NCBI GenBank assembly: GCA_030706405.1
Contig: JAUZOO010000013.1
Location: 1 to 64,000, forward strand
DNA from: Bacteroidota bacterium
Lineage (GTDB): Bacteria > Bacteroidota > Bacteroidia > Bacteroidales > JAAUTT01
Reading direction: 5' to 3'
Length of the DNA: 64,000 nucleotides
Positions 3,793-42,366 of the stretch are shown piece after piece. A program made the translations under genes and the position numbers. Each line of letters begins with the position of its first letter. The first letter of the stretch is position 1. The notes below the pieces were generated by a model, which did no database searches, had not been told where the DNA came from, and worked only from the letters and a program-made list of their open reading frames with translations.

Positions 3793-3825
3793 ACGTAATG
3801 TTGTTTTTAAGTTCAATGTTTGGCG

Positions 3826-5878: not shown

Positions 5879-6709
5879 CTAAATAGCCTCGCCCAATCCA
5901 AGTACATTGATAAGTTCGACAGGGTCAACCAGCCGCGAGGGTATGTGCATCCCTGCCAGATGCAATTTTTCGAGCACTCGCCGACGCAGAATGATAAATT
6001 CATCGTCGTTACGGTCGCGTTCGGGTTTCAGCTTTACCTCAATAATTTCGTTAATCTTTCCGGGCCGGGCGGTCATAATCACAATCCTGTCGCTCAAATA
6101 AATAGCTTCGTCAACATCGTGGGTTACGAGAACAATGGTCGTCCTGGTGTTTTTCCATATTTTCCGGATGGTATTTTGCAAGTCGATGCGGGTAAAGGCG
6201 TCCAAAGCGCCTAAGGGTTCATCCAACAGCAACACCTTGGGTTCGTTGATTAATGCCCGGGCAATGGCAACACGTTGCGCCATCCCTCCGGAAATCTCGT
6301 GCGGATAAGCTTTTTCAAAACCTGTCAAACCAATCATGTCGATATACTGTTTAACCAGAGGCTTTTTCTCCTTATAAACATTTCTGGCTATTAACCCGAT
6401 GGCAATGTTTTCCTCAACCGTCTTCCACGGAAAAAGCGCTCCCTGCTGAAAGACATATCCACGTTCAAACCCGGGCTTTTCAACCGGGCTTTCATTCAAA
6501 AGCAATTGTCCAGCCTGAGGAGCATCGAGGCCGGCGATAAGCCTTAAAAGCGTAGTCTTGCCGCAACCGCTCGGGCCGATGAACGAAATAAGCTCGCCCT
6601 TTCGGATTTGGAGGTTAACATTCTGTAAAGCTTCGGTTTTTCTTCCGGTGGTATCGTAATAAACACGGTCCACACCACGGATATCGATTAATATACCTGG
6701 GTTACTCAT
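5879..6709 (-). CDS. ABC transporter ATP-binding protein, SsuB/TauB type
   Basis: ATPase of a nitrate/sulfonate/taurine-type importer, about 276 residues from the ATG at 6709. Walker A is GPSGCGKTTL, the signature is SGGMAQRVAIARAL and Walker B is VLLLDEPLGALDAF. The ATG overlaps the permease stop as ATGA, a classic coupled start, which is why the longer TTG-initiated frame is rejected. It lies directly after the permease and the substrate-binding lipoprotein, giving a complete importer. The substrate class could be a sulfonate, another small organosulfur compound, a pyrimidine or a metal chelate. Linkage to metal-type receptors leaves this open. Confidence 0.85.
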   Translation of the reverse strand: MSNPGILIDIRGVDRVYYDTTGRKTEALQNVNLQIRKGELISFIGPSGCGKTTLLRLIAGLDAPQAGQLLLNESPVEKPGFERGYVFQQGALFPWKTVEENIAIGLIARNVYKEKKPLVKQYIDMIGLTGFEKAYPHEISGGMAQRVAIARALINEPKVLLLDEPLGALDAFTRIDLQNTIRKIWKNTRTTIVLVTHDVDEAIYLSDRIVIMTARPGKINEIIEVKLKPERDRNDDEFIILRRRVLEKLHLAGMHIPSRLVDPVELINVLGLGEAI

Positions 6710-7707
6710 TGTACAATTCCATTTTTCCAACGTAAAACATAATTTCGAACGACCGTAAGAACGGCAAGAATGATAGAGAAGGCAATCGCCATGATGATGA
6801 TGGATGCATAAACCTTATCGTATGCCGACCATGCCTTGGCCCAGTTGATGTACCATCCCAGACCGGCTTTGGCGCCAATCATTTCCGAAACGATTAAGGT
6901 TAGGAAGGATAAACCGGTGGCCGTGGATATGCCGGAAAAAATGTCGGGGACAGCATTGGGCAGGGCTATGTGGAACAATAAAAAGGATTCGCCGGCTCCC
7001 AATGTTTTGGCTGCTTCGTAATAGACCTTCGGCGTTGAGGCAATTCCCCCGGAAACCATAAAAGCAACCGAAAACCACGAGGCTATGGCAATGAGGAAAA
7101 CCCCGGCCGAGAAACTGTTCGGCAACAGTACAATCGCTATTGGTAACCATGCAATTGCAGGTATTACGCCCGATATTTTAATAACCGGAAACAGCCAGTA
7201 ATACCATTGCCGGTACCAGCCTATTAAGATACCGGTTGCTATGCCCAACAACGTCCCCGAAACCAATCCCACAAAGAAAAGGCGCATGGAATAGTATGTA
7301 CTGATTAACAACGTTGTACGTTCTTTGACAATAACATCCACAATTTGGACTGGACCAGGAAAAAACGGAAGTTTGAAGATGCCGCTTTTTGTGGTTAGCA
7401 AGTCCCACAAAGCCAAAACAATACCTACTGCAAAGATAAACTGCGCTTTATGGTACAGCTTTTTGCGGATTGTACCGACGTAACGCGAAGCAATCCACAG
7501 CACAGTCAGAACAGCGGCGAAACCACCCAGAAAGACCTGATAAGAAACGGGATTGACAAACTGTACATTAGGAACCAGAACATCAACCAGTAATGCCAAA
7601 AGGACTGTAGCAATTGATGCTGCAACCCATATTTTTGATTTCGGTTTCCAATAAACACCGATGTCACTGCCAAGCACCTCGTGTTTTGATTTTTTATTTT
7701 TTTCCAA
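6706..7707 (-). CDS. ABC transporter permease, SsuC/TauC type
   Basis: Integral membrane protein of 333 residues with N-terminal hydrophobic helices and the permease EAA-type loop (YYEAAKTLGAGESFLLFHIALPNAVPDIF) around residues 230-260. It appears to begin with TTG at 7707, because no ATG is nearby and AGGAGG stands 8 nt upstream. Such a clear Shine-Dalgarno sequence is rare in Bacteroidota and decides the start. It would form the membrane channel of the importer with the ATPase that overlaps its end and the lipoprotein binding subunit encoded just before it. The N-terminal region (about 110 residues) is longer than in ordinary SsuC proteins. Confidence 0.83.
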   Translation of the reverse strand: MEKNKKSKHEVLGSDIGVYWKPKSKIWVAASIATVLLALLVDVLVPNVQFVNPVSYQVFLGGFAAVLTVLWIASRYVGTIRKKLYHKAQFIFAVGIVLALWDLLTTKSGIFKLPFFPGPVQIVDVIVKERTTLLISTYYSMRLFFVGLVSGTLLGIATGILIGWYRQWYYWLFPVIKISGVIPAIAWLPIAIVLLPNSFSAGVFLIAIASWFSVAFMVSGGIASTPKVYYEAAKTLGAGESFLLFHIALPNAVPDIFSGISTATGLSFLTLIVSEMIGAKAGLGWYINWAKAWSAYDKVYASIIIMAIAFSIILAVLTVVRNYVLRWKNGIVQ

Positions 7708-7721
7708 AGTAATGTCCTCCT

Positions 7722-8780
7722 TTACATTTTTTCGTGAGAGGACATGCCTCCATCATGAGATGTCTCTATATCCGTTGGAATCTCGTAGTATAAATTCTCA
7801 ACGAATTTTTGAGTATTCAGATTTTTGGGCAGGAATCCGGCCTTTTCCAATTGGTCGGTAAAATACAAAGCATCATTCTTTGCCCTGGCCCTGGTGTTTG
7901 CATTATGTTTAGCATGATATTTATAGCTTTTCACCAATTCGGTAATCAAAGCAGGATCGTCACTTGAAATGTATTTTTTATCAATCATGATTTGAGCTGT
8001 TTTTTCAGGATTCTGAGCAATCCATTCGCTCGATTTTTGAAGGGCTTTTAAAACAGCTTTAACTCGTTCCGGATTTTCTTTAATTTGCTGACTGGATGCG
8101 TATAAAAAGCAGCAATATTTTCCGGCGAACAAAGGGTGTGTGCCTATATCGCAAAGTACCCGATACCCTTTTTTAACAGCCAGTGTAGCAAATGGGTCCC
8201 ATAATGCAACGGCATCTACTTCTCCTTTTTCGGCCATTCCTTGTAAATGTTCGAGCGGATAAGGAAGCCAGGTAACGCCCGACGTGGGGTCTATATTGTT
8301 ATTGGCAAGAAATACACTCGAAATAGCCATCGGTGTCCCTCCAATTTCATCAACGCCTATTTTTTTATGGGCCAAATCTTTGGCTTCTTTAATAGGCGAA
8401 CCGGGAGGAACTAATAATTTAATACATCCATCGTGCAATCCGGCAATGAGTTTAATATCCAACCCTTCATTGACGGAAGGAAAATACTGGAAGTCGCCAA
8501 CAGCAACTGAGAATTTGCCACTTGCCAAACCTGTCTTATTCGATTCAAAATTTCCGCTTACCAGCGTTACATCAAGACCTTGGGCGGCAAAAAAACCATT
8601 TTCTTTGGCGATGTAGAAGGGAGCTCCACATGCCGCTCCACTCAAAGCCTGAATTTCAATTTTACCTAACGGAAATTTTTCGCTGGCTCCGTTGGTTTTA
8701 CTTGCATTATGTCCACAGCTACAAATTGTTATAGCCAGTAATGCCATTGCACTAATTCGTGATAATTTTGAATTTCTCAT
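7722..8780 (-). CDS. ABC importer substrate-binding lipoprotein, NMT1/SsuA-like
   Basis: A 352-residue lipoprotein (signal with C20/C22 in AITICSCG) of the SsuA/TauA/NMT1 periplasmic-binding class. Recognisable parts are GAPFYIAKENGFFAAQGLDV, LASGKFSVAVGD and EVDAVALWDPFATLAVKKGY. It contains unusual cysteines at likely pocket positions (SGAACGAP, HDGCIK, GKYCCF) and a His/Met-containing tail (HDGGMSSHEKM). These suggest a thiophilic or metal-bearing ligand, which is an inference. It sits directly between a TonB receptor and the permease, so it may take over a compound brought in by that receptor. Confidence 0.8.
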   Translation of the reverse strand: MRNSKLSRISAMALLAITICSCGHNASKTNGASEKFPLGKIEIQALSGAACGAPFYIAKENGFFAAQGLDVTLVSGNFESNKTGLASGKFSVAVGDFQYFPSVNEGLDIKLIAGLHDGCIKLLVPPGSPIKEAKDLAHKKIGVDEIGGTPMAISSVFLANNNIDPTSGVTWLPYPLEHLQGMAEKGEVDAVALWDPFATLAVKKGYRVLCDIGTHPLFAGKYCCFLYASSQQIKENPERVKAVLKALQKSSEWIAQNPEKTAQIMIDKKYISSDDPALITELVKSYKYHAKHNANTRARAKNDALYFTDQLEKAGFLPKNLNTQKFVENLYYEIPTDIETSHDGGMSSHEKM

Positions 8781-8809: not shown

Positions 8810-11134
8810 TTAATATATTTTACCTACCCTGAACCGCACACCGGCATATATTTTCCGTCCCATTGTCGGCCCCCACACCTGCGAAGCGTCAAAGCCTTTC
8901 ACAAATGGATTCTCGGCGTTGATTATCGGGTTTTGAAGCTGATAGTCCAGAATATTTTCGATGCCCAGATAAACATCAAGCCTCTTGGTATTTTTCGTTA
9001 TCTGGAAAAAATACATGGGGTAAGCGGGAGATTCGTTGGCCTGTGCCGTATATCCCGTTGCACTAGGAAGTCGGGACGGTCCATTAACCTGTGCAGTGAA
9101 GTCGAACACCCATTTCTTAAATTTGGTGGCATACGACAGGTTGACCAATCCCCTATACCTCGAAATCAAAGGCTTATCGACCTCATAACTTTGCTGTCCG
9201 TCATTCAGGGTTATCCGGTTACGGTTATAACGAAAAGCGGTAAACACGTCGAAACCACGGAGAGCAGTAAACGAAATATCGGCTTGCCAAACATCGGCAA
9301 ACGAGCGGCCGTTCAGGTTATAGAAATACACATAATTGCGGTTCCTGTCCAGGTCGACGATGGCCTGTTTTTCAAATTCGGTATGGAAATATTCGAGGCT
9401 TAGGGTAAGCTTTTCGCGGTTCCAGACGGGCAGGTAAAAGGTGGCATTACCGCCATAATTCCAGGCTTTTTCTATCTGCAAATTGTCGATGGCATCAATA
9501 TCGAATTTACGAGTAGAGGCCATTAGCCCAATGTTATCGGCAATGACGTTGGGCGAACGATAGCCACAGCCCGCCGAAGCCCGCAGCACAATATTTGGGG
9601 TAACACTGTATTTGACGTTGGTGCGCGGCGTAAACAACCATCCATAGCGGTAATTAAAATCTTCCCTGAGCCCGACGATCAACGTAAACTTCTGAAGATA
9701 AGAATAAGTGTATTGAGCAAAGGCTCCGGGGACAACTTCTGTGCGGTTTAACGGAGTTAACGGAGTGTTGTTCTCCGGCAGTTTATCGCGGAATACGGTT
9801 TTGAAATTGTCGTACAAAAAGCTTGCACCAACTGCATACTGGTGATTGGTATTTCCTATATATGAATTAAATATAACGTTGCTGTAAAACGTGTTCTGTG
9901 TTCCGTTATAAAGTTTATACGTTTTATCGGAACCAAAATAAGAATCGAGTTTATGAGTTGTAAAACTATTGATGATGCCGATGCTTTGCCCCGGTTTGGA
10001 GCCAATGGCAATTCCGGTTTTATTGTAAATGTTGAAATTCAGGTTATCAACATCGGTGATGTAATAAACATCGGCTTTGTGGCATAAAGGCGATTGTCCA
10101 CCTTGGCGGTCGTCGTACAGGAAACGGGCACCGGTGCGCGATTCCACACGTTTCGAGGGGCTAATGTACAACCACCGGTTAAACACGTTGACCGATTTGG
10201 TTAACGGCATGTCCATAAAATGGTCGCTATTGCGGTCATGGATGGTCGTGTTGCCGGTTTGGTAATTGATGTTGGTTTGCGTTGACCCTTGCACCAACAA
10301 ATTTGTCCACAGGTTATCGTTTATCTTTCTGGCACCGGTTATATTAGCCTCATACTTAAAGTATTCGTCAGCATATAATTCTGCAAAAAATTCTTCCGTT
10401 TTATCGGGCTTTTTAAATTCCAGATTGATTTGTCCAGTTACCGACTCGTAGCCATTAACCACCGACGATGCCCCTTTGGATATCTGGATTGACTCCAGCC
10501 AACTGCCTGGAATATAATTCCATCCATAGGTTGACGATAATCCCCGTAATACCGGGATATTCTCGCCCAACACCTGACTGTAAATGCCCGAAAGCCCCAA
10601 AAGCTGAACTTGTCGGGCACCGGAAACCGCATCGGCATAGCCAACGGTAATGGTAGCGCTGTTCTCAAAACTTTCGGCCAGGTTACAGCAGGCCATCTTC
10701 ATCAGCCCGGTTTTCGAAATCTGTTCGGTCTTTAAAACATTAAACCGCGAAATGAGGGTCCCGGCCTGACTGGCAGTGACTGCGACTTCTTTTAACTGCT
10801 GCTCGCGGGGAAGAATAAATTCGACATTGGAATTGACCACCCGGCCTGCAATTAAGGCACTGTCAACGGTAAGTCCCTTATAAGCAACAACCAAATAGGC
10901 AGAATCTTTGCCCGTCCCTGCGAGTGTAAATTGTCCGTTGGCGTCGGTGCTGGTTATTTTGGCAAGTCCGGCAAACCGGATATTGGCTCCCGCAACCGCT
11001 TCCTTTTCGCCCTTGGAATTTAACGAATATACGTGTCCGACAATGTTTTGAGCCCGGGGAATAGCAGGTATTCCCAACAGGCCAAAAAACATCAAACGCC
11101 TAACGCAAAGAAGTAAAAATTTATGGGCACTCAT
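8810..11134 (-). CDS. TonB-dependent receptor with carboxypeptidase-regulatory N-domain
   Basis: A 774-residue outer-membrane receptor. A signal peptide is followed by a CarboxypepD_reg-like beta domain (about 30-115), a plug and a beta barrel ending in the aromatic-rich RKIYAGVRFRVGKIY. The plug carries KMACCNLAESFENSATI (Cys149-Cys150), a motif I associate with Bacteroidota receptors encoded beside HMA metal proteins. It is encoded between another TonB receptor and the ABC binding protein, all in one direction with gaps of about 20-30 bp. It likely imports a metal complex or small chelate that the SsuABC-like transporter then carries inward. The substrate is not determined. Confidence 0.82.
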   Translation of the reverse strand: MSAHKFLLLCVRRLMFFGLLGIPAIPRAQNIVGHVYSLNSKGEKEAVAGANIRFAGLAKITSTDANGQFTLAGTGKDSAYLVVAYKGLTVDSALIAGRVVNSNVEFILPREQQLKEVAVTASQAGTLISRFNVLKTEQISKTGLMKMACCNLAESFENSATITVGYADAVSGARQVQLLGLSGIYSQVLGENIPVLRGLSSTYGWNYIPGSWLESIQISKGASSVVNGYESVTGQINLEFKKPDKTEEFFAELYADEYFKYEANITGARKINDNLWTNLLVQGSTQTNINYQTGNTTIHDRNSDHFMDMPLTKSVNVFNRWLYISPSKRVESRTGARFLYDDRQGGQSPLCHKADVYYITDVDNLNFNIYNKTGIAIGSKPGQSIGIINSFTTHKLDSYFGSDKTYKLYNGTQNTFYSNVIFNSYIGNTNHQYAVGASFLYDNFKTVFRDKLPENNTPLTPLNRTEVVPGAFAQYTYSYLQKFTLIVGLREDFNYRYGWLFTPRTNVKYSVTPNIVLRASAGCGYRSPNVIADNIGLMASTRKFDIDAIDNLQIEKAWNYGGNATFYLPVWNREKLTLSLEYFHTEFEKQAIVDLDRNRNYVYFYNLNGRSFADVWQADISFTALRGFDVFTAFRYNRNRITLNDGQQSYEVDKPLISRYRGLVNLSYATKFKKWVFDFTAQVNGPSRLPSATGYTAQANESPAYPMYFFQITKNTKRLDVYLGIENILDYQLQNPIINAENPFVKGFDASQVWGPTMGRKIYAGVRFRVGKIY

Positions 11135-14576: not shown

Positions 14577-14668
14577 CAAAGGTGGGTGTTGTGCTTAAGC
14601 ATTGAAATAACACATATAAGGTATTTAAGGATACCATGTTTAAGGGAGTTAACAGTGGTATTTATGCG
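14577..14668 (-). promoter_or_regulatory. Operator-promoter 1 (metal-receptor operon)
   Basis: On the plus strand ATAAC-N8-GGTAT (14607-14624), 6 bp, then ATACC-N8-GGGAG (14631-14648), plus a distal GGTATTTATGCG (14657-14668). CAAA at 14577-14580 is the complement of the -7 TTTG, exactly 26 bp from the nearest half-site. Sequence and spacing match eight other sites in this window. Confidence 0.8.
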
Positions 14669-14774
14669 CATTTACCGTTAACGGGTTTAGGGTTGCACAA
14701 CACAACAAAAAACAAACCATAAAAAATTATTTTACAACCAATTACACTCCGGAACCTGGTTCCTTTCTGTAATA

Positions 14775-20711: not shown

Positions 20712-20803
20712 CAAAGGTGGCTGTTACCGGGAAGCATTAAAATAACACATATAAGGTATTTAAGGATACCATGTTTAAGGGATTTAGCAGTGGTATTTAT
20801 GCG
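20712..20803 (-). promoter_or_regulatory. Operator-promoter 2 (SusCD-lipoprotein locus A)
   Basis: ATAAC-N8-GGTAT (20742-20759), 6 bp, ATACC-N8-GGGAT (20766-20783), then GGTATTTATGCG (20792-20803). CAAA (complement of TTTG) at 20712-20715 is 26 bp from the nearest half-site. It is nearly identical in sequence to operator-promoter 1 over 60 bp. Confidence 0.8.
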
Positions 20804-20949
20804 TATTTACTATAAACGGGTTGGGCATCAGACAGGTTTTGGTAGTAATCCAACCAAAACATGAATGAATCGGTCAGGTTCATCCTTGTTTCCGACAAAA
20901 ACATGAATGAATCGTAACAAGTCCCATTTAAAATCGGTTTGTTAATAGA

Positions 20950-27069: not shown

Positions 27070-28347
27070 TTAATTCTCAAAAGCTTGTTTCAGGTCGGCA
27101 ATCAAATCATTAACATCTTCTAGACCGATGGACAGACGAACTGTTTCGGGTTTGATACCGGCCTTGCTTTGTTCTTCTTCGGTAAGTTCGTGGTGGGTGG
27201 TTTGTGCCGAATTGATGACCAAGGAACGGGCATCACCAACATTGGCGTGATAAGCGAAAAGTTCCAGTTTTTCAATAAACTGATTTACCTCTTCTTCCGT
27301 ACCTTTAAATCCAAACGAGAAAGTACCGCCAGCACCTTTGGTTAAATATTTTTTAGCCAAGGCATTGTATTTACTTCCCGGCAAGGTTGGCAAACTAACC
27401 CATGATACTTTGGGATGCGTTGTCAGAAATTCGGCAATCTTCTGGGCCGATTCGGTTTGTTTTTTAACACGTTCGCTCAAAGTTTCAATTCCCTGTAAAA
27501 CGAGGTAAGCATCAAACGGACTGAGGGTTGCACCAAGCAATCCAAGGAGGTTGGTACGAATACGACCCACAAATGGAAAATCGGGCAAAGCCTCAATAAT
27601 ACTCCGGTCGCCAAGGGTATAATGCTTTTCGGTAAATTGAGGGTGACGACCGCCAGCCCAGTTAAATTTACCCGATTCCAATACCAAACCGGCAATAACC
27701 GAACCATGCCCGCTAAGAGCTTTGGTGGCAGAATAAACCACCACGTCGGCCCCGTGTTTTATAGGATTAAGCAAATAAGGGGTTGCAAAGGTATTATCAA
27801 CGATTAACGGCAATCCGTTTTTGTGGGCAAGGTTGGCAATCGCTTCGATATCGGCCACAACATTAATAGGATTACTAATCGACTCGATAAAAATAGCGCG
27901 GGTGTCGTCCTTGATTAAAGCTTTAATTGCCTCCAGGTCATTCACATCTTCCAAAATATCAACCTGAACGCCAAGACGGGGATAAATCTTCTTGTAAGCA
28001 TCGTACGTACCACCATAAATCTGGGCAGCAACAATAACACGACCACCTTCGCCAACATTAAGCAAGGCATAGGAAATAGCGGCCATACCCGAAGCGACCG
28101 ACACTGCTCCGGAAGCACCATCCAAAGCAGCTACACGGGCTTCGAGGGCAGCATTCGTAGGGTTTCCAACACGGGTATATACATAAGCCAGTTCCTCCAT
28201 CCGCAGTATCCGATGGGCACGTTCGGTTGATATTAAATCAAACGCAGCGGTTTGATAAATAGGAACCTGAATTGAATTACCATGTTCGGCGGGATTGTAC
28301 CCGGCACGAATCTTCAAGGTGTCAAATTGATAATCAGCAGTACTCAT
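27070..28347 (-). CDS. metY: O-acetylhomoserine sulfhydrylase (MetY type) beside the nitrogenase-like operon
   Basis: A 425-residue PLP enzyme of the Cys/Met-metabolism family. MetY-type features are YTRVGNPTNAALEARVAALDGASGAV, the PLP lysine in VVYSATKALSGHGSVIAG and the length (about 425, longer than gamma-lyases). It joins sulfide or methanethiol to O-acetylhomoserine, giving homocysteine or methionine. It is the first gene after the nitrogenase-like nifDK pair on the same strand, with 421 bp of repeat-rich DNA between them. In known methylthio-alkane reductase systems, methanethiol released from volatile organosulfur compounds is captured by this kind of enzyme, so a functional link is plausible. 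A second family member is encoded at 58895-60136. Confidence 0.88.
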   Translation of the reverse strand: MSTADYQFDTLKIRAGYNPAEHGNSIQVPIYQTAAFDLISTERAHRILRMEELAYVYTRVGNPTNAALEARVAALDGASGAVSVASGMAAISYALLNVGEGGRVIVAAQIYGGTYDAYKKIYPRLGVQVDILEDVNDLEAIKALIKDDTRAIFIESISNPINVVADIEAIANLAHKNGLPLIVDNTFATPYLLNPIKHGADVVVYSATKALSGHGSVIAGLVLESGKFNWAGGRHPQFTEKHYTLGDRSIIEALPDFPFVGRIRTNLLGLLGATLSPFDAYLVLQGIETLSERVKKQTESAQKIAEFLTTHPKVSWVSLPTLPGSKYNALAKKYLTKGAGGTFSFGFKGTEEEVNQFIEKLELFAYHANVGDARSLVINSAQTTHHELTEEEQSKAGIKPETVRLSIGLEDVNDLIADLKQAFEN

Positions 28348-28498
28348 TGTTAAATCGTTTAATTTGTTGGTATTCTTTTCTTAATCAACAACCAGTTGAT
28401 GCCGGTTGGAGGTAAAATTTCATTATCAGGAGAATCCCCTCCATTTCAAGGTATAGCCGTCAGGTAAAGAAGTAACAGTGAACCATAAAAGAGGTACA

Positions 28499-28675: not shown

Positions 28676-28754
28676 TATCCCCTTGAAAAGGGGAGAATCC
28701 TCAGCTCAGCGGTGGGAATCCCCTCCTTTCCAAGGAAGGGTCAGGGGAGGTTTT
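28676..28754. repeat. GGAGGGG palindromic intergenic repeats, copy 2
   Basis: CCCCTTGAAAAGGGG and CCCCTCCTTTCCAAGGAAGGG, two hairpin units in tandem, related to 5835-5870 and 38431-38460. Confidence 0.5.
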
Positions 28755-28768
28755 AGGCTAAATATTAA

Positions 28769-30085
28769 CTAATTAAAACTCTGATAAACACTGGAGTAAA
28801 TATCTTCTAACAGTTTTAAGCCTCCGTGGTAACCTACATAGGAACTGTGCAGGATCACTTTTTCTTTAATGGGAACACTGATACACACAAAGTTACCATC
28901 AAGCTTACGCGCCAGTTTCTTCTCGAAAATGCTCCCAATGATTAACGGTGCACCGGCAAAGTCTTCCTGTTCAATCTGTTCGTGTACTTTGTAGCCGTCG
29001 GTCGAAAAAACAACATCGGCTTTAATGCCATAACTAAACCCGTTGAAATATTCGGCCACCCGTTGCTGATGTTCTTCCGGCACCCCTTCGGTAATAAACT
29101 GGGTATTTGGCATCAATCCCAAATCATTAACCAGGAACTTGGAAACAGCAAGTGCATTGGCTGCGGTTGTAACCGTTGAGAACTTTTTGGATGCTGTACG
29201 GTTTTCGAAAAAAATATCCACCGAGCGTTCCAGATAGAAGTAATATTCGGTTTCGTGTTTTTGAATAATCGCTTCAACATGCTTAGGGTCAATGCCGGCG
29301 AAATCGCCTACCGCATGCAGGAAAGCCGAAGTTTCGTGAGCCCCGATCGGCAGTGTCGGGTAGTGCAGATAAGGGGTACCGAACTTCTTTTCGAGCAGTT
29401 TTACGTTATCCAGTCCTACCCACGGCGATACCAGAAGGTTAAACTCAGCTTGCGGTACTTTATCCACATTTTCGATTCCCCGAAATTCGCCGAAAATAGA
29501 GTTTGGCGTTAACCCAAGTTTGCGTATCAGGTTTTCGAGCTCGCGGATATTGCCCAGCCAATACGGGTCGTACGATGGCACCGGCCCCCAGATATTCACC
29601 AGCCCCTTAATCACGTCCTTTTTAGGTTGACGTGCAAGATACTGATTGATAATACCGTTCACCACCCATTCGTGACCTTCGAGGTTAGTTCCTTTAAACC
29701 CTGCAGTAGCCACCGATATAACCGGTTTTTCGGCATCCCGGAACTCACTCACCACCTGGTCAATGTCGTCGCCAACAATTTCGACCGTGCAACCGGACAG
29801 CACCACAAACAGGTCGCCATCCATCACTTTCAATGAATTTTCGATGATGGTGCGCAGTTTTTCCTCTCCGCCAAAAACTACTTCAGTTTCGCCAATATTG
29901 GTACAGGGATAGGTTTGAGGGTTCAGGTAACCTGAATCTCCGGTGGTTCCGGCAATACATCCGGCAAGTTTGGATGCACAACCCGGCCCTGCATGGATGA
30001 TGGGAATTGCCCGGCTAATCGCCTGAACGGTTTGCATAGCGCCTAATGCACATACGTATCTTGGTTCGTCTAAAATCTTTGCCAT
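28769..30085 (-). CDS. NifK-like subunit of a nitrogenase-like reductase
   Basis: A 438-residue protein of the nitrogenase component-1 family, beta-type. All three P-cluster-type cysteines are present: C12, C36 in HAGPGCASKL and C99 in SGCTVEIVGDDID. It is shorter than NifK (about 520), lacking the NifK N-terminal extension. It would pair with the NifD-like protein encoded 33 bp upstream and carry the bridging Fe-S cluster that feeds electrons to the active-site cofactor. Absence of NifE/NifN and of NifV argues against a molybdenum nitrogenase. A methylthio-alkane reductase MarK-like role is the best guess. Confidence 0.82.
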   Translation of the reverse strand: MAKILDEPRYVCALGAMQTVQAISRAIPIIHAGPGCASKLAGCIAGTTGDSGYLNPQTYPCTNIGETEVVFGGEEKLRTIIENSLKVMDGDLFVVLSGCTVEIVGDDIDQVVSEFRDAEKPVISVATAGFKGTNLEGHEWVVNGIINQYLARQPKKDVIKGLVNIWGPVPSYDPYWLGNIRELENLIRKLGLTPNSIFGEFRGIENVDKVPQAEFNLLVSPWVGLDNVKLLEKKFGTPYLHYPTLPIGAHETSAFLHAVGDFAGIDPKHVEAIIQKHETEYYFYLERSVDIFFENRTASKKFSTVTTAANALAVSKFLVNDLGLMPNTQFITEGVPEEHQQRVAEYFNGFSYGIKADVVFSTDGYKVHEQIEQEDFAGAPLIIGSIFEKKLARKLDGNFVCISVPIKEKVILHSSYVGYHGGLKLLEDIYSSVYQSFN

Positions 30086-30118
30086 TATTTTGTTCGTATT
30101 CTTTTAGTAATTAACACT

Positions 30119-31627
30119 TTATTTAACATCCACCAATTCTTTCACTTCAGAACCTTCGTATAACGCGTCGTATTTTTGCTCCATCCACCACTTGGAATAA
30201 GGTAAGCGTACATGTTTGGAAAGATTTTCGGCAAAACTCCGATTGGTGATAATATCCAGCAGTGTTTGTGCAAACCGCAGCGTACCCCGGTAACCGAATG
30301 AATTATACTCGTCGTAAACGCAATAAGCCGGGACACCGATTTTCATCGCCCAAACGGTTGAGCCCGGATGCCGCGATACAAATACATCGGGTTTAACATT
30401 GTTCAGGATATTCATAAACTCATAATTCTGAAGGTCGTTTACCGAATAATTGAAATTGTTCGGCGAATTCTCGGTCAGATATTTTAAAGCGGTAGGCTGT
30501 TTTCCGTCATCGTATTGTTTGTCGAGGTGCCATGCCAATAAATGTTCTATTTTGATACCAAATTCCTGCAAAATACGGGTATAATTGGCGCCAAAGCCGG
30601 GTCCCATAGCGATTACGGCACGTTTACCGCGAAGTTTTTCCTTCACCTTTTCCAGTTTGGGAAGATAGAAATCCCGCTCCTTCTGAAGGTAAGCTTCCAT
30701 TTCGGCTTCTTTGCCCACGATTTTAGCCAGCTGACGGGCATAATCTTCAAACCCAACAATGCCGTGAGGTGGTAACGACCGAACAAACGGTACTCCATAA
30801 GCTTTCTCTAACCCGATACCAAGATAAGAACCTAGTGTGCTGCATGTTGTTACCGTTGCAACAGCCTCTGAGAGATGTTCCAGTTCTTCCACCGAGGCCG
30901 ATGCCGGGAGATAAGTTGCCTCAAGACCAATGGCACCAAGCATTTGCTTAATGTCGCTGCGGGTATTCCACGACAAGCCCTGGGTAAAACCATAAATATT
31001 GACCTTATTACTTTTCTTCTGAGGTGGTTTTACAATGTATTTAAGAATAGCATGTTGAGCCAAATCAAATCCTGTTGCCCAAATTTGCGATTTAAATCCT
31101 TCGCAATGTACCGGAGCAATCGGGATGTCGATTTCTCCTTTAAAATCATCGAGAAGTCCTTCCAAATCCTCGCCAATCACGCCGCTTACGCACGATGCCC
31201 CGATAAAAATTACCTTGGGATGATACCGGTGGTACGTTTCAAGGATTACTTCTTTGAGGGTTTCGATGGAACCAAAAACCGTGTCGGCTTCCTTCATGTC
31301 GGTGCAGGTATAAGCAAAATGAGAACGGTCGCGGCCCAAGGCACCTGCCAGCAAATCGTAATTACTCGAAATTCCGATTGCCGTAGCCGCACATCCCGAC
31401 GGGCCATGATGCACAATAGCCGCATCGTTAATGCCCGACAGCTGTCCTAACGCGCAGTTTGAGGGACAGGAAGAAGCCTGGCTGAAACAACGGCCTTTGT
31501 TTTCGACACATCCGCCGCCACAAGACAAATCCTGTTTAAGGTCATTCAACGACCCCGAAAAACCGGTTATCGAACCCAGTCGGGATTCGCGGGAGTCGCA
31601 TAGTTTACTGTTTATGTTAATTGCCAT
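30119..31627 (-). CDS. NifD-like catalytic subunit of a nitrogenase-like reductase
   Basis: A 502-residue component-1 alpha-type protein. P-cluster ligands are predicted at C54, C79 (HHGPSGCA) and C146 (GASCVSGVIGEDLEG). C262 in TTCSTLGSYLG aligns with the NifD Cys275 that anchors the active-site cofactor, so a complex cofactor is expected rather than the simpler clusters of chlorophyll or F430 reductases. At the position of NifD His442, my eye alignment of KIGVPAYCVYDEY with the NifD region gives Tyr438. An extra Cys-rich N-terminus (SCGGGCVENKGRC) is present. With nifH-, nifB- and nifK-like genes plus adjacent metY this fits MarD of methylthio-alkane reductase. Another group-IV nitrogenase-like activity remains possible. 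Confidence 0.82.
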   Translation of the reverse strand: MAININSKLCDSRESRLGSITGFSGSLNDLKQDLSCGGGCVENKGRCFSQASSCPSNCALGQLSGINDAAIVHHGPSGCAATAIGISSNYDLLAGALGRDRSHFAYTCTDMKEADTVFGSIETLKEVILETYHRYHPKVIFIGASCVSGVIGEDLEGLLDDFKGEIDIPIAPVHCEGFKSQIWATGFDLAQHAILKYIVKPPQKKSNKVNIYGFTQGLSWNTRSDIKQMLGAIGLEATYLPASASVEELEHLSEAVATVTTCSTLGSYLGIGLEKAYGVPFVRSLPPHGIVGFEDYARQLAKIVGKEAEMEAYLQKERDFYLPKLEKVKEKLRGKRAVIAMGPGFGANYTRILQEFGIKIEHLLAWHLDKQYDDGKQPTALKYLTENSPNNFNYSVNDLQNYEFMNILNNVKPDVFVSRHPGSTVWAMKIGVPAYCVYDEYNSFGYRGTLRFAQTLLDIITNRSFAENLSKHVRLPYSKWWMEQKYDALYEGSEVKELVDVK

Positions 31628-31698
31628 AATGATATTATATATAATTATAAATTAGTTACATGCACCGATTTGGCATCCGGCTCACCGGAAAGGCTTTT

Positions 31699-32046
31699 TC
31701 AGAATAATTTAACCCGTCCGTTTTGTCTTTTCAGAAGGGTGGTAAGGATATGGTTCACAGAGAAATCGACGGCAAAGCTTTTTATACCGTTCAAAAGGAG
31801 GTGCCTTTCAGCACGTTTGCCAATCCGTTGAACAAAAACAACTTTACAATCGCTTAACAGGTTGGCAATCCGTTCGAGGTTGGCTTCCGAATGGCCTATT
31901 TCATCTTCAAAATGAGGAACTTCACGGTCTTCAACAAATTCGGCATTACCGTCCGACACCTCATAAACCAGAAAATTTTCAGCTTGACCAAAATGTTGAT
32001 CTACAAGCACACCATCGTTGCTTGCTATGGCTATTCTGTACGACAT
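31699..32046 (-). CDS. NifX/NifB-C-terminal-type cofactor-binding protein
   Basis: A 115-residue single-domain protein of the dinitrogenase iron-molybdenum-cofactor-binding family. The fold is shown by RIAIASNDGVLVDQHFGQAENFLVYEV, and KVVFVQRIGKRAERHLLLNGI lies near the middle. The same domain is fused to the C-terminus of the NifB-like protein encoded 3 bp upstream. Such proteins carry cofactor precursors between NifB and the acceptor, so it probably passes a NifB-derived Fe-S-C cluster to the NifDK-like pair. It replaces the missing scaffold NifEN only in part, and this role is inferred. Confidence 0.8.
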   Translation of the reverse strand: MSYRIAIASNDGVLVDQHFGQAENFLVYEVSDGNAEFVEDREVPHFEDEIGHSEANLERIANLLSDCKVVFVQRIGKRAERHLLLNGIKSFAVDFSVNHILTTLLKRQNGRVKLF

Positions 32047-32049
32047 AGG

Positions 32050-33312
32050 CTAACTATTGCATCCACCGCCAGAGCCGGAACACCCTCCTCCTACCCCACA
32101 ATTCCCGGCTAACCGCAACGATTTTTTGGGGATAGGGTGACCGGAAAACAACGCTTCGGTGCTTTCCTTTACCGACCCACTGACGGCTTCCACAAAAATC
32201 CCTTTGTTTTTGAGTATTTCCAGAGGAACAGGCCCGATACCGCTAACCAATAAGGACGCGCAATCGGACAACGAACCGGCAATGTCTTCCCAACGGGTTT
32301 GACTGGTGCGGGAAGCATGTACAGATCGTTTTTCAATTAATTCGACGCTTCCGTTTACAAAACCATAAATCAGTAAATCAGAAGCTTCGCCTAAGTGTTG
32401 ATTAACAGAAAATCCATCCGAAGAACCCACTGCGATATAAGGCTTTGTGGTAAACGACAGTTGCAATTTCGACTGGCTTAACAGCTGTTCCGATTCTGCG
32501 CTGTTGTCCTGTCCCAACAATCCCACGGCATCGGCACGGCAACGCGCACAGTGAGCCATCTGATTGATATGTAACGATGTTTGTGCACGGACAGCTCGCA
32601 TACTGGCAGGAGAAGGCTCGTACAAATTACCAAACGGAGTACCTTCAACCGGGATAAGCGGGATACAATTCTGGACATCAGCCCCAAGCTCAGCAACATA
32701 CCGGGCAATTTCAGGTACATGATGTTCGTTAACCCGTGGAACCACCACGGTATTTATTTTAACGGTAATTCCATGTTTTTTCAACGCTTTGATGGCTTCC
32801 GTTTGCCTGTCCAACAATATCTTAGCACCTTCTACACCGTGATAGGTTTTCTTATTATAGTAAACCCATTCATAAATTTGCGCCCCAACTAACGGATCAA
32901 CGGCATTTACAGTAATGGTTACATGCGAAACATTAAGCATTGCCAGGTACGGAATATGCTCCAGTAACGAAAGTCCGTTGGTGGATATGCACAACAATTT
33001 ATCGGGATATTGTTCGCGGACTAATTCGAGCGTTCCAATGGTTTTATCAGCATTGGCAAAAGGGTCTCCGGGTCCGGCAATACCTACAACTGCAAGATTA
33101 GAAATCTTTTGCTCCACCTCGTTCAGATAATTGAGAGCCTGCAACGGACTTAATATTGCGGTGGAGACACCCGGACGGCTTTCGTTGGCACAATCGAATT
33201 TCCGGTTACAGAAATTACATTGCACATTGCATTTAGGGGCAACAGGTAAATGAATTCGTCCCGTCCGGTGTCTGGCTTCGGCATTAAAACAAGGGTGATT
33301 GCTTATCTCCAT
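32050..33312 (-). CDS. NifB-like radical SAM cofactor-core synthase
   Basis: A 420-residue protein with NifB architecture. HPCF (6-9) is followed by the radical SAM cluster motif C28-x3-C32-x2-C35 (PKCNVQCNFC) and GPGDPFAN, then HCARCRADAVGLLGQD (about 255-275), and a C-terminal NifX-like domain from about 290. It ends with a Gly/Cys-rich tail (CGVGGGCSGSGGGC), an unusual addition that could hold or accept an Fe-S cluster. NifB fuses two 4Fe-4S units around a SAM-derived carbide. Its presence next to DK-like genes that retain the cofactor cysteine strongly suggests that the reductase uses a NifB-co-type cluster. Confidence 0.88.
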   Translation of the reverse strand: MEISNHPCFNAEARHRTGRIHLPVAPKCNVQCNFCNRKFDCANESRPGVSTAILSPLQALNYLNEVEQKISNLAVVGIAGPGDPFANADKTIGTLELVREQYPDKLLCISTNGLSLLEHIPYLAMLNVSHVTITVNAVDPLVGAQIYEWVYYNKKTYHGVEGAKILLDRQTEAIKALKKHGITVKINTVVVPRVNEHHVPEIARYVAELGADVQNCIPLIPVEGTPFGNLYEPSPASMRAVRAQTSLHINQMAHCARCRADAVGLLGQDNSAESEQLLSQSKLQLSFTTKPYIAVGSSDGFSVNQHLGEASDLLIYGFVNGSVELIEKRSVHASRTSQTRWEDIAGSLSDCASLLVSGIGPVPLEILKNKGIFVEAVSGSVKESTEALFSGHPIPKKSLRLAGNCGVGGGCSGSGGGCNS

Positions 33313-33365
33313 ATTTTCTTTTTTAACCTCTATTACATCACAAAAACATTTCCCAATAGGTTTTC

Positions 33366-34241
33366 TTAAACACCAGCCTTCTCGCCTTTGACTTCGCCCG
33401 ATTCAATGGCTAATAATTGATCCGCCCAATCGGCCGACCATTGGCGTAACTCATCAATATCAAGAGGAGAAGGCACGCGAGACTGCGTATGTTCATGAAT
33501 TTTACGCGCCAAACGGCGGTAAACATTGGCCTGAACGGAGTTTGGGGCTGCCTCAATAGTAGTACGGCCCGACAATTCGGCCTGGGTAACGGTTATGGAA
33601 CGAGGTACAGATTCTACCACTTCCGTTCCGGTACGTTTAGCAAAATCTTCAATAATAGACTGTTGATAAGGGCTGTTGATGGAGTTGGCAATAATACCTC
33701 CAAATAATGCCCCTCCGGTATTCGAATACTTCTTAATACCTTTCATCAGGTTATTGGCTGCATAAACCGCCATAAAATCGGACGAAGAAACGGTAAACAC
33801 ATGCTCGGCAATACCTTCGCGGATGGGCACGGCAAACCCGCCACAAACCACATCTCCTAACACGTCAAATATCACGTAATCAAGATCTAATTCTTCAAAA
33901 ATATTTTGATTTTTTAATAATTCAACGGCTGTAATAATACCGCGTCCGGCGCAACCAACTCCCGGAGCCGGACCACCAGCCTCTACGCAATACACCCCCT
34001 GAAATCCCTGAAAAATAGCATCGTGAGCATCTACCTTTGGGTTTTTGCGTAACAAATCCAAAACTGTAGGGATATACTTTCCATCCCGTAACGTATTGGT
34101 CGAATCACTTTTGGGGTCGCATCCAAATTGAAGTACCTTATACCCGGCTTCAACAAGGGCTGCACTGATGTTAGAGGTTGTTGTAGATTTTCCGATACCA
34201 CCTTTTCCATAGATTGCAATTTGTTTAATCTTTTTTGCCAT
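33366..34241 (-). CDS. NifH-like iron protein (ATP-dependent reductase)
   Basis: A 291-residue protein of the NifH/BchL family with Walker A GKGGIGKST (12-20), CDPKSDST, and the two bridging cluster ligands C97 in GVGCAGRG and C133 in DVLGDVVCGGFA. It would be the ATP-driven electron donor to the DK-like complex. It is the first gene of the operon (H-B-X-D-K order), about 120 bp after the shared operator-promoter. A GEKAGV tail extends the usual C-terminus. By itself NifH cannot tell nitrogenase from nitrogenase-like systems; the operon content argues for the latter. Confidence 0.88.
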   Translation of the reverse strand: MAKKIKQIAIYGKGGIGKSTTTSNISAALVEAGYKVLQFGCDPKSDSTNTLRDGKYIPTVLDLLRKNPKVDAHDAIFQGFQGVYCVEAGGPAPGVGCAGRGIITAVELLKNQNIFEELDLDYVIFDVLGDVVCGGFAVPIREGIAEHVFTVSSSDFMAVYAANNLMKGIKKYSNTGGALFGGIIANSINSPYQQSIIEDFAKRTGTEVVESVPRSITVTQAELSGRTTIEAAPNSVQANVYRRLARKIHEHTQSRVPSPLDIDELRQWSADWADQLLAIESGEVKGEKAGV

Positions 34242-34364: not shown

Positions 34365-34456
34365 CAAAAATGACAAAAGGGATATTTTTTTAATATAACT
34401 CATATATGGTATTTTAAAATACCGTGTTTAAGGGAGCGGAAAGTGGTATTTTTACG
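34365..34456 (-). promoter_or_regulatory. Operator-promoter 3 (nitrogenase-like operon)
   Basis: ATAAC-N8-GGTAT (34395-34412), 6 bp, ATACC-N8-GGGAG (34419-34436); the inner pair forms the perfect palindrome GGTATTTTAAAATACC. GGTATTTTTACG lies distal (34445-34456). CAAA (minus-strand TTTG) at 34365-34368 is 26 bp from the nearest half-site. Confidence 0.82.
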
Positions 34457-34794
34457 TATTTGCAGACCAACAACAACTAGAACTTAACTTATTATTTATA
34501 AATAACTTACACTATTATACTTAGTTAAAAATGTGCTACAATTTCTAACTAAAGTTTATTATCTTATTCCATGTTCCAACCTCTCGAAAACACAATATTG
34601 GGACATGATTAAAACAATTTTTATCAATGCTAAATTTATTATGACACGAACCTGAACATAAATTTTCAAAGCATATTTTCCTCGGAAAGGGAAATGTCTA
34701 TCTTGATTGATAAGTTTAATTATCAACATTTTACAAATAACACTAACTCTTGTATTCTTTTTTAAATAATTTTTCGAAATTCCGATAAATTGTA
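34457..34794. other. AT-rich gap, nothing recognised
   Basis: Between the nif-like promoter and the terminator of the encapsulin operon. No gene, RNA or repeat was recognised. A 92-codon minus frame spanning the terminator has no domain and is rejected. Confidence 0.5.
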
Positions 34795-34859: not shown

Positions 34860-36767
34860 TTAAAATATCCGATGACGTATGTTTTTCAATGCATCAACCA
34901 GACGGTCTATTTCTTCTTTGGTATTATAAAGCGATAGCGACGGACGAACGGTCCCTTCGACGCCAAACCGGCGCAACGACGGCTGTGTACAATGATGCCC
35001 TGCGCGGACAGCAATTCCCCGCTCATCGAGGTATTTACCCACCTGTTCTATTGGAATATCATTCAGCACAAATGATAAAACGCCAACTTTGTTTCGCGCC
35101 GTACCAATGATGCGTAAACCCGGAACCTGGCTAAGTTGCTGCGTTCCGTAATCGGTAAGCAGATGTTCGTACCGGGCAATATTTTCGAGCCCTATTTTGG
35201 TCACGTAATCAAGGGCAGCCCCCAGCCCGATGGCGTCGGCAACATTAGGCGTACCGGCCTCAAACTTGTTGGGAATACCGTTATAAACAGTTTCCTCCAG
35301 CCTTACGTCTTTAATCATGTTACCGCCTCCGTGCCATGGCGGCATCACCTCGAGCAATGCTCGTTTGCCGTAAACCGCACCGATACCGTTGGGAGCAAAA
35401 ATCTTATGTCCGGAGAAGACAAAAAAGTCTGCATCGAGTTCCTGCACGTTTACCGGAATATGAGCTACCGACTGTGCACCGTCCACCAAAACTTTGATGT
35501 CGTATTGCCGTGCCAGCTGAATCATCTCCTTTAGGGGAAGGATCGTTCCTAGGCCATTCGAAGCCTGCGTTACTGCCAAAAGTTTAACGCGCGGGTTCAG
35601 CAAACGGGTATATTCTTCCATGATAATCTCGCCGTTTTCGTTCACTGGGATAGCTTTCAGCACAGCACCCTTTTCTTTGGCCAGCATTTGCCAGGGAACG
35701 ATGTTGGCATGATGTTCGAGCAGCGAAATCAGAATTTCGTCGCCCGGCTGGATGAATTTCCGTCCCCAGGTTTGGGCTACCAGGTTAATTCCTTCGGTAG
35801 TTCCGCGCACGAAGATAATTTCGTCGGTGGAAGCAGCTCCCACAAAGTGACGTACCTTTTTGCGGGCTCCTTCGTAAGCATCGGTAGCGCGGACAGCCAG
35901 CGTATGAGCGCCGCGGTGGATATTCGAATTATCTTCGTAGTAAAACTTCGAGATAGCGTCAATCACACTTTTAGGTTTCTGCGTGGTGGCAGCATTATCG
36001 AACCATACCAGCGGTTTGCCGTGTACATACTGATGAAGTACCGGAAAATCATTACGGATGGCCTGCACATCAAAAATATTGTGCGTATAAAGCGGCAGCT
36101 TTGGCTCGCGCAGAAAGTAATACCCTGTAGAAGGCTCCGTTGGCACCTCCTGAGCCGATTCGGCTACATTGGCATACAAAAACGATAAATCAATTTGATC
36201 CGATGGAAACCCACTGCCCAGCAACTGAAACAGCTGGGAGGGCTGTCCGCTTTCAGAAAGTCCGCCGGATACCGATTGCACTTTATGTACAAATTGATGC
36301 AGGTTGGGCGCATTGTCCTTATTCCCATTCAACGTCTGCTGGCTTACCAGGTAATCGGCATGGCTCGACAACGGAGCTGAAGTGGCAGGTTTATTACCCG
36401 ATAAAAAATAACAATTCGAGAGATCGGCATTAAACGGATTTTCAGAAATAACAAGAAGCTGAGGAATTTCCTCTTGCGAAGGTGCAAACAACGGCAATGA
36501 AGCCGCCTGCCCGCCAATATTGGTTAACCCGTCGAAGTTAAGCGTATCTCCCAACTCCGTTGCAGGGGTTACGGGCAATGCTTGAGGTTCAGGAAAAGCT
36601 GATTCCCTAAAATAGTCTGACGTATGTTTAACATCCTGCTCATTTTTAGATATCTCGGCAGCTCCCGGAAACTCGTTGTAAATCCGGCTTGCCAATTGGG
36701 CAAATGCGGTCGGATTTAACAAATCATCACCGAGAGGCGATCCTAATGTCAGTTTATCTATCGACAT
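34860..36767 (-). CDS. Encapsulin-cargo cysteine desulfurase (SufS-like with long N-terminal extension)
   Basis: A 635-residue protein. Residues about 230-635 are a SufS/class-II cysteine desulfurase with PLP lysine K455 (FSGHKIFAPNG) and catalytic C593 (RAGHHCTQPSLRRFG). It takes sulfur from cysteine as a protein-bound persulfide. Residues 1-225 form a Pro/Ser/Gln-rich, low-complexity extension absent from ordinary SufS (about 405 residues), as in the cargo desulfurases of family 2 encapsulins, where this disordered region directs loading. Its start is 7 bp after the shell gene, so the pair is co-transcribed. Related encapsulated desulfurases are linked to sulfur storage; here that is an inference. 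Confidence 0.9.
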   Translation of the reverse strand: MSIDKLTLGSPLGDDLLNPTAFAQLASRIYNEFPGAAEISKNEQDVKHTSDYFRESAFPEPQALPVTPATELGDTLNFDGLTNIGGQAASLPLFAPSQEEIPQLLVISENPFNADLSNCYFLSGNKPATSAPLSSHADYLVSQQTLNGNKDNAPNLHQFVHKVQSVSGGLSESGQPSQLFQLLGSGFPSDQIDLSFLYANVAESAQEVPTEPSTGYYFLREPKLPLYTHNIFDVQAIRNDFPVLHQYVHGKPLVWFDNAATTQKPKSVIDAISKFYYEDNSNIHRGAHTLAVRATDAYEGARKKVRHFVGAASTDEIIFVRGTTEGINLVAQTWGRKFIQPGDEILISLLEHHANIVPWQMLAKEKGAVLKAIPVNENGEIIMEEYTRLLNPRVKLLAVTQASNGLGTILPLKEMIQLARQYDIKVLVDGAQSVAHIPVNVQELDADFFVFSGHKIFAPNGIGAVYGKRALLEVMPPWHGGGNMIKDVRLEETVYNGIPNKFEAGTPNVADAIGLGAALDYVTKIGLENIARYEHLLTDYGTQQLSQVPGLRIIGTARNKVGVLSFVLNDIPIEQVGKYLDERGIAVRAGHHCTQPSLRRFGVEGTVRPSLSLYNTKEEIDRLVDALKNIRHRIF

Positions 36768-36774
36768 AAGTCAA

Positions 36775-38211: not shown

Positions 38212-38532
38212 ACGATTTGTTTTAAAAATTTGTTATTAGTTTGATTTTGCTCCTGTTTATTTAAAAAAATATGAATATTCTCCCGGTTTTTCTTCAAATA
38301 AATACGAATCCCCTCCTTTAAAAAAGATAAGGGAAGGTCTTTTATTTAATCTTACAATTTGCCATTTTAAATTTTATCTAATTCGTTATTATATATTTAC
38401 ATAATTCAGATATTCTTAAGAGATGAATCTTCCCCGGCCCCTCCTTTTCAAGGAGGGGAAATGATGACTCGTTGTTAAAAGAGTTTAAAGGACTTTTTAT
38501 AATACTTTAGAATTAGGCGGAATGGCCGCAGG
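38212..38532. other. Gap upstream of the encapsulin gene
   Basis: No gene was recognised. It contains a GGAGGGG palindrome (38431-38460) and AT-rich DNA near the shell start codon. It lacks the shared operator, so the shell gene is either read from the cysK promoter or from an undetected promoter here. Confidence 0.45.
38431..38460. repeat. GGAGGGG palindromic intergenic repeat, copy 3
   Basis: CCCCTCCTTTTCAAGGAGGGG, a near-perfect hairpin related to 5835-5870 and 28676-28754. Confidence 0.55.
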
Positions 38533-42266: not shown

Positions 42267-42366
42267 CAAAGATGGCAGGTATCTGCTCTCCGATAAATAC
42301 CTTTTGTTAGGTATTTCTGCATACCAAGAACATGGTACTTATGCTACCGTAAACATGGTATTTATG
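42267..42366 (-). promoter_or_regulatory. Operator-promoter 4 (threonine-synthase-like gene)
   Basis: ATACC-N8-GGTAT (42297-42314), 6 bp, ATACC-N8-GGTAC (42321-42338), and a third pair CTACC-N8-GGTAT (42344-42361). CAAA at 42267-42270 is 26 bp from the nearest half-site and 33 bp from the start codon. Confidence 0.82.

Follow-up and report, generated by a model that had tools for sequence, protein, structure and literature searches.

Methylthio-alkane reductase (MAR) of Rhodospirillum rubrum, encoded by marBHDK, is the closest described relative of the system reported here. The structural report of MAR (PMC12552129; Protein Data Bank (PDB) entries 9fmg and 9d9u) gives MarD Cys66, Cys91 and Cys158 and MarK Cys32, Cys56 and Cys121 as P-cluster ligands, and MarD Cys270 and loop-I His429 as ligands of the [Fe8S9C] cluster. 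The Arg428-His429 pair was proposed there as a possible hallmark of MAR, and His194, Trp195 and His375 as possibly taking part in substrate recognition and proton transfer. Isethionate reductase (Isr, IsrBHDK) is a second nitrogenase-like enzyme of sulfur assimilation; PMC11423573 describes it as lacking two D-subunit P-cluster cysteines and the cofactor cysteine, with a radical-SAM partner that is NifB-like in the radical-SAM motif alone. Nitrogenase activity has been claimed for other relatives: NflDK1 was proposed as the nitrogenase of Heliophilum (PMC9147875) and a group IV homologue of Endomicrobium, NfaDK, was stated to be functional (PMC11257099). The locus analysed was an nflH-nifB-nifX-nflD-nflK operon in a stretch of 64,000 nt from a Bacteroidota bacterium (positions 1 to 64,000 of contig JAUZOO010000013.1, assembly GCA_030706405.1), hereafter the window.

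The operon probably encodes a Mar-type C-S reductase that contains an [Fe8S9C] cluster and acts on an imported organosulfur compound, the enzyme belonging to a separate lineage that is sister to MarDK plus Nfa-like sequences. Structural matches, conserved ligand residues, phylogeny and a sulfur gene neighbourhood with a shared upstream element support this reading, and are given in turn below.

Operon, fold and ligand residues

Five open reading frames (ORFs) on the minus strand form the operon at 34241-28769, in the order and place given by the initial annotation (a nifH-nifB-nifX-nifD-nifK-like operon read as a candidate MAR). Gaps from H to K were 53, 3, 71 and 33 nt; the upstream element and its two other copies, metY, and the transporter, TonB, Sus-type and cystathionine genes below also lie on the minus strand. 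nflH (33366..34241) encodes the MarH-like Fe-protein (reductase) component, matched Fer4_NifH and contains both annotated cluster ligands (Cys97 and Cys133). nifB (32050..33312; Radical_SAM and Nitro_FeMo-Co) encodes the radical-SAM enzyme that makes the Fe-S-C precursor cluster and has a C-terminal NifX-type domain. The nifX-like ORF (31699..32046; Nitro_FeMo-Co, PF02579, 67 bits) encodes a cofactor carrier with homologues in other Bacteroidota nfl loci. nflD (30119..31627) and nflK (28769..30085), both matching Oxidored_nitro, encode the catalytic subunit and the second catalytic subunit. In NCBIfam scans H scored 402.6 bits (cut-off 394.35) with the nifH model TIGR01287, which cannot separate MarH from NifH, and NifB scored 393 bits with the nifB model TIGR01290, above its cut-off. 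D and K were far under the cut-off in every one of 18 listed nitrogenase, NifEN, chlorophyll-enzyme and F430-enzyme models. The window NifB shared 62-65% identity with its counterparts in four Bacteroidota loci, over almost the whole protein, and 48% with the NifB encoded on contig C15 of the same genome.

Among PDB chains, D scored 333 bits with R. rubrum MAR (9fmg_A) and 130 bits with the top nitrogenase chain; K scored 362 bits with MarK and 76 bits with the runner-up. D was 36% identical to MarD. The AlphaFold model of D (predicted local distance difference test 88.7, predicted template modelling score 0.90) had 9fmg_A as its best fold match, with a TMq of 0.87 and a root mean square deviation of 2.1. 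The top three chains of this fold search were MAR and the other 47 listed were nitrogenases at TMq 0.65-0.71 (135 at E ≤ 0.001).

By alignment, D Cys54, Cys79 and Cys146 correspond to MarD Cys66, Cys91 and Cys158, and K Cys12, Cys36 and Cys99 to MarK Cys32, Cys56 and Cys121, so that all six P-cluster cysteines are kept. The cofactor ligands Cys262 (MarD Cys270) and His420 (His429) are also kept, together with Arg419 (Arg428), in 39/39 rows of the window clade. All seven cysteines in the initial annotation of D and K were thus correctly located. Across the D alignment the Arg-His pair was present in 39/39 window-clade rows, 17/17 canonical Mar rows and 7/7 rows of the Nfa-like side, and in none of the 34 other rows (Nif, Vnf, Anf, Bch and other Nfl), six of which have a gap there. 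Because the Nfa-like side and the window clade share it, the pair marks a clade wider than MAR.

The pocket differs from that of MAR. Position 194 (MarD numbering) is Ile (31 rows) or Val (8 rows) in the window clade (Ile182 in the window D) versus His in 17/17 canonical MarD rows; at position 376 all 39 rows have Tyr, Phe, Leu or Met (Leu368 in the window D) versus His in 17/17; and Cys73, present in 15/17 canonical rows, is found in none of the 37 window-clade rows having a residue there. Trp195 is kept in 38/39 rows (Trp183 in the window) and His375 in 39/39 (His367). The His194-Trp195-His375 trio around S2B is therefore incomplete in the window D, with Trp183 and His367 present and His194 replaced. 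NifD Val70, Gln191 and His195, which surround S2B in nitrogenase, are likewise replaced, the aligned residues being Gly61/Gln62, Trp183 and Phe187.

Phylogenetic placement and distribution

Relatives were collected by scanning two peptide patterns over an 84,980-species collection, which returned 262 relatives; the 80 best were retained. Loci of the window type were 68 of these best 80: 66 passed a 450-bit rule, and L050 (gene called on the other strand) and L109 (D cut) were added. D-like ORFs of at least 370 aa and at least 100 bits against the window D entered the D tree, contained copies were removed and 11 references were added. The set was thinned to every sixth spirochaete D, six of L014-L036 and one of L037-L042, and the tree was flagged for long branches, including the Bch and L170 rows. 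For the K tree 79 of the 86 D rows were paired; in L053 and in L111 a single K served two D rows, and the concatenated tree contains none of these rows. The D, K and H trees were quick searches without bootstrap, and the concatenated DK tree (49 rows, 929 columns) was a careful search in which two rows, L169 and the host NifDK, had odd composition.

In the concatenated tree the five Nif/Vnf/Anf/NifEN references formed their own clade at 100/100, with the window D/K outside it. The window clade was supported at 100/100, the window clade with MarDK and Nfa-like at 100/100, and MarDK with Nfa-like at 99/96. The window DK is thus not inside the MarDK clade but sister to MarDK plus Nfa-like. Forcing the window and MarDK into one clade cost 52.6 log units and was rejected by the approximately unbiased (AU) test (p 0.00028), the tested group having been chosen after the trees had been viewed. 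The window clade was also recovered in the separate quick D and K trees, and on these alignments the window DK is placed as a lineage distinct from MarDK. In the quick H tree the window H was sister to H of proteobacterial Mar loci (Shimodaira-Hasegawa-like approximate likelihood ratio test 95), away from the NifH-type protein of host contig C15.

Placement of the Nfa-like rows, with Heliophilum standing in for Endomicrobium, conflicted between subunits: they fell with MarDK in the D tree (92) and with the window in the K tree (84), and the concatenated tree and AU test favour the former. The initial annotation had taken placement with MarDK, or as its sister group, as support for a MAR. Sisterhood was recovered in a loose sense, the sister being MarDK plus Nfa-like and not MarDK alone. 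The substrate is therefore not fixed by this sisterhood. The sister group also contains a DK type that has been proposed to act as a nitrogenase (PMC9147875).

Window-type loci were named in Tannerellaceae, Dysgonomonadaceae, Prevotellaceae and Paludibacteraceae, and also in Clostridium, Sporomusa, other Bacillota, Treponema, Geotalea, a myxobacterium, a coriobacterium and Heliophilum. Heliophilum and Sporomusa each carry canonical Mar as well as the window type. The annotated occurrence in Bacteroidota held, with nine named Bacteroidota loci besides the window itself, whose SusC/SusD-type pairs and nearest relatives also point to this phylum, and it is patchy. Among 395 sampled Bacteroidota genomes a close match was found in the window genome only, the runners-up showing 27-30% identity over most of the length; among 119 relatives searched at E 1e-60 the host alone passed, leaving 118 without a match at that level, four members of the same genus included. 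This rare and patchy occurrence suggests horizontal spread.

Two other groups of D/K genes were observed in the collection. An island of ∼85 kb in Sporomusa sp. KB1 (L153-L157, ∼2.888-2.973 Mb) contains 18 of the genome's 24 PF00148 matches. Its D/K genes are of the canonical Mar, window and Nfa-like types or unassigned, and transporter-like genes are interspersed. One Bacteroidota family (f19; L014-L036) has nitrogenase-like D/K with D 27-30% identical to the window D; six aligned f19 D rows lack two P-cluster cysteines (Asp and Pro instead), as does Isr, for which PMC11423573 gives Arg and Pro/Ser at those positions. L035 of this family has an in-frame TAG.

Shared upstream element and sulfur genes

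An operator- or promoter-like element of 72 nt lies before nflH at 34390..34461, with the palindrome GGTATTTTAAAATACC at 34408-34423. It is repeated with 79% identity at 20737..20808, before a SusC/SusD-type operon (20535 downwards), and a genome search recovered that copy and a third at 14607..14673, before an SsuABC-like/TonB operon (14516 downwards). By DNA search this 67-72 bp element with the palindrome GGTATN6ATACC has three copies only in the whole genome, and a longer pattern had three exact genome matches, which are those same copies. Across the 4.93-Mb genome the bare palindrome has 14 sites, versus 4 for a control pattern, and the 64-kb window accounts for five of the 14; at up to 2 mismatches the palindrome was counted 52 times in the window versus 26.7 expected. 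With up to 3 mismatches the genome count of the longer pattern was near control (13 vs 8), so only the three exact long matches were used. The exact palindrome was not found before the window metY. An Rfam gathering scan of the window gave 0 hits, and a known riboswitch was rejected on that scan. Further GGTAT-N6-ATACC sites, two exact and two with one mismatch, are present at 42310, 60456, 40820 and 42547, near cysK, an ORF (41026-42234) judged by eye to be threonine-synthase-like and an O-acetylhomoserine-sulfhydrylase-like gene; TAAATTTAGGTA comes next at sites 60456 and 40820.

The transporter operon under this element encodes an SsuABC-like ATPase of the ATP-binding cassette (ABC) class (5879-6730; nitrate/sulfonate/taurine-type) and permease (6706-7707), both identified with Pfam and NCBIfam under all listed cut-offs, an SsuA-family binding protein (7722-8780; SsuA_fam 105.7 bits, cut-off 163.5) and a TonB-dependent receptor (8810..11134; PF00593). 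The other encodes a SusC-like outer-membrane protein (17443-20535), assigned from size and gene order, and a SusD-like one (15788-17395), matched weakly in NCBIfam. metY, of the O-acetylhomoserine sulfhydrylase family (27070..28347; TIGR01326 485.5 bits, cut-off 495.1), is the next gene after nflK on the strand, as annotated; at 421 nt away it perhaps has its own transcript. A cystathionine beta-synthase (CBS)-like gene (3826-5214; 394 bits, cut-off 510) and a gene of the cystathionine gamma-synthase/lyase family (2617-3816; family scan) complete the set, and both have homologues in nfl loci L045, L048 and L051.

Directly upstream of the nfl operon, at 34860-38211, are genes for a family-2B encapsulin shell with a cyclic-nucleotide-binding (cNMP) domain and a cysteine desulfurase cargo. 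The related SrpI encapsulin and its cargo are reported in PMC8049743 to rise under sulfur starvation in a cyanobacterium. DsrE2-like, ThiS-like and cysK genes also adjoin the operon. A 20-nt CCCCTCC-containing repeat has four copies, two before metY (28432-28451 and 28716-28735) and two before the encapsulin operon (38306-38325 and 38434-38453).

Sulfur genes were also sought in 67 window-type loci (L050 missing), a gene run being defined by the same strand and gaps of up to 300 nt. MetY, CysK-like or CBS genes were in the run in 39/67 loci, and in 12/28 outside spirochaetes. Anywhere in the locus, they were present in 32/46 window-type loci of at least 15 kb, 5/10 remaining loci (mostly canonical Mar) and 0/6 nif/anf/vnf stretches. 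metY directly adjoins nflD or nflK in L043, L044, L046, L051, L052 (myxobacterium) and L054-L056 (Sporomusa-type). NlpA/MetQ-type lipoproteins are encoded in L049 and L051, as part of a cluster of eight similar proteins from Prevotellaceae, Paludibacteraceae and Treponema loci, and MetN-like ATPases in L048 and L051. In the Paludibacteraceae locus L051 (9520-21283) three tandem nflD and a single nflK are followed by metY, the gene of a MetQ-like lipoprotein, which opens a tandem of three genes of ∼300 aa, and a MetN-like ATPase gene. Heliophilum fasciatum contig 7 (L158:2371-10008) has the same-strand run metY-nflD-nflK-nflH-cysK-nifB, whose DK has the MarD-type Arg-His pair and was matched to the label NflDK1 by gene order. 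This run and pair would fit sulfur assimilation better than N2 fixation.

Candidate function and comparison with known systems

From these observations we infer that the operon encodes an ATP-driven reductase of the Mar branch, nitrogenase-like and with two components. NifB would build the [Fe8S9C] cluster, which would enter the D subunit without NifEN or homocitrate, as in MAR. Electrons from NflH would pass through the P-cluster to the [Fe8S9C] cluster, held by D Cys262 and His420, where the C-S bond of a small organosulfur compound would be cut reductively. The substrate would be imported through the TonB/SusCD-type and SsuABC-like importers having the same upstream element. MetY is the likely sink for the released thiol or sulfide, which would then pass through the cystathionine enzymes to methionine and cysteine under sulfur scarcity. 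Given the distinct lineage and the altered pocket, the substrate is probably not exactly that of MAR.

Several observations weigh against this reading. His194 and His376 are missing in 39/39 clade rows, and the chemistry may differ from that of MAR; sequence gives the ligand positions, from which the clusters are presumed. H exceeds the NCBIfam nifH cut-off, and the SsuABC-like proteins (5879..8780) score under curated cut-offs. A check of 13 related loci and 2 host stretches did not find the exact palindrome. The promoter was annotated as being of the sulfur type, a label for which the downstream genes speak and not any known regulator. MetY, CysK and CBS are absent from the run in 28/67 loci, and the window's own metY, at 421 nt, would fail the 300-nt rule too. 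The single spirochaete CysK-like protein tested scored 272 bits, under the cysK cut-off of 351, so its reaction is uncertain. In the open-licence literature searched, no paper was found assigning a function to the window clade or an activity to any of its members.

A broader proposal, put forward tentatively and falling somewhat short of an even chance, is that the lineage, anaerobic and widespread, joins nitrogenase and MAR as a third kind of reductase on a P-cluster and 8Fe carbide cluster. Its imported organosulfur substrate, resembling an amino acid or a sulfonate, would be reductively desulfurised to sulfide or thiol. Its span covers Bacteroidota, Clostridia, Treponema, Geobacteraceae, Myxococcota, Actinomycetota and heliobacteria. 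If this were true, sulfur enzymes would be found among the 'group IV-A nitrogenases' of the neighbouring branch.

A true MAR, converting 2-methylthioethanol, dimethyl sulfide or ethyl methyl sulfide to methanethiol and a hydrocarbon, is possible but doubtful. The cofactor ligands, Trp195, Phe199, His375 and the Arg-His pair are all as in MAR, metY is adjacent, H is MarH-like, and the NlpA/MetQ-type lipoproteins (L049, L051) and MetN-like ATPases (L048, L051) would suit it. However, DK falls outside MarDK plus Nfa-like, the window+MarDK alternative was rejected, and His194 and His376 are each present in 0/39 rows versus 17/17. That Heliophilum and Sporomusa hold both canonical Mar and the window type suggests different jobs. 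The annotated MAR candidacy therefore survives in part: the Mar-type, non-nitrogenase assignment is upheld by the PDB matches, fold, Arg-His pair, H tree and separate nif cluster, and the sulfur context by metY, the SsuABC-like transporter, the cystathionine genes and the shared element, but the tree and the two replaced histidines speak against MAR itself.

It is improbable that the enzyme is a sulfonate reductase acting like Isr with release of sulfite. In its favour, one operon with the shared element encodes an SsuABC-like transporter of the sulfonate/taurine/nitrate type. Against it, the window D keeps all the cysteines, of which Isr loses the Cys62/Cys154 and Cys275 equivalents, the radical-SAM partner is above the nifB cut-off, and presumed Isr-like rows (family f19, L170) are far outside the window clade. 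Identity with Isr was rejected on the cysteine pattern and radical-SAM partner.

That the enzyme is an alternative nitrogenase working without NifEN, like the one claimed in Endomicrobium (NfaDK), is very unlikely. The P-cluster and cofactor cysteines are complete, and both the Heliophilum pair on the neighbouring branch (PMC9147875) and the Endomicrobium homologue (PMC11257099) have been put forward as nitrogenases. The sulfur gene context opposes it, as does replacement of NifD Val70, Gln191 and His195, essential to N2 reduction, and the Heliophilum pair is itself in a run with metY and cysK. The host also has a separate nif cluster: contig C15 carries four PF00148 genes in nifD-K-E-N order (D and E above NCBIfam cut-offs, K and N named from gene order and tree place only), nifB above cut-off, a NifH-type gene and, directly after nifB, a nifV-like gene (430 bits, cut-off 463). 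The host is thus a probable diazotroph and the window operon a second nitrogenase-type system; the operon as the host's nitrogenase was rejected on this ground. The annotated absence of NifE, NifN and NifV holds for the window but not for the genome. The discovery of nifEN and nifV elsewhere, with expression under nitrogen control, had been named as a refutation of the MAR proposal; although literally found on C15, these genes sit with their own nifHDK and are no argument against a non-N2 role. A cofactor-assembly scaffold serving the host nitrogenase, for which the nifB and nifX of the operon could speak, is most improbable, as C15 supplies NifE, a NifN-like gene and NifB, Heliophilum has the window type yet reportedly lacks NifEN and classical NifDK (PMC9147875), and the operons with the common element are importers.

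With the Mar-type C-S reductase as the preferred reading, a second Mar-type lineage with the same ligands and a different pocket lets the residues setting substrate choice be asked. It bears on the sulfur supply of gut and soil anaerobes and on biological ethylene and methane release, and surveys of nifH-like genes may misread such genes as nitrogen fixation. Since the host has both systems, NifB-derived cofactor may be shared or partitioned between the two enzymes.

Compared with R. rubrum MarBHDK (9fmg, 9d9u; PMC12552129), its best structural match, the window system has the same P-cluster cysteines, Cys270, His429, Arg428, Trp195, Phe199 and His375, and a NifB-type partner and MarH-type reductase in the locus. 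It differs in its 36% D identity, its separate sister clade, the replacement of His194, His376 and Cys73, the NifX-type domain of its NifB and its Bacteroidota-type importers. For NfaDK/group IV-A proteins (Heliophilum NflDK1; Endomicrobium), the Nfa-like rows, in which Heliophilum stands in for Endomicrobium, share one clade with the window DK and MarDK, the Arg-His pair and, in the Heliophilum run, metY and cysK; they differ in keeping His376 and in grouping with MarDK, a placement found in the D and concatenated trees but not in the K tree. Heliophilum fasciatum NflDK3 (PMC9147875; label matched by gene order) is on a deep branch of the window clade itself, but with 48% D identity and no metY in its run. 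IsrBHDK, as described in PMC11423573, is alike in being nitrogenase-like and serving sulfur assimilation, and unlike in its missing cysteines and in the limited NifB-likeness of IsrB. The MarHDK-like group IV-A genes near type I mlp clusters, reported in a preprint (PMC10418091), resemble the window in that their sulfur gene clusters also combine metY and cysK with genes of nitrogenase-like type.

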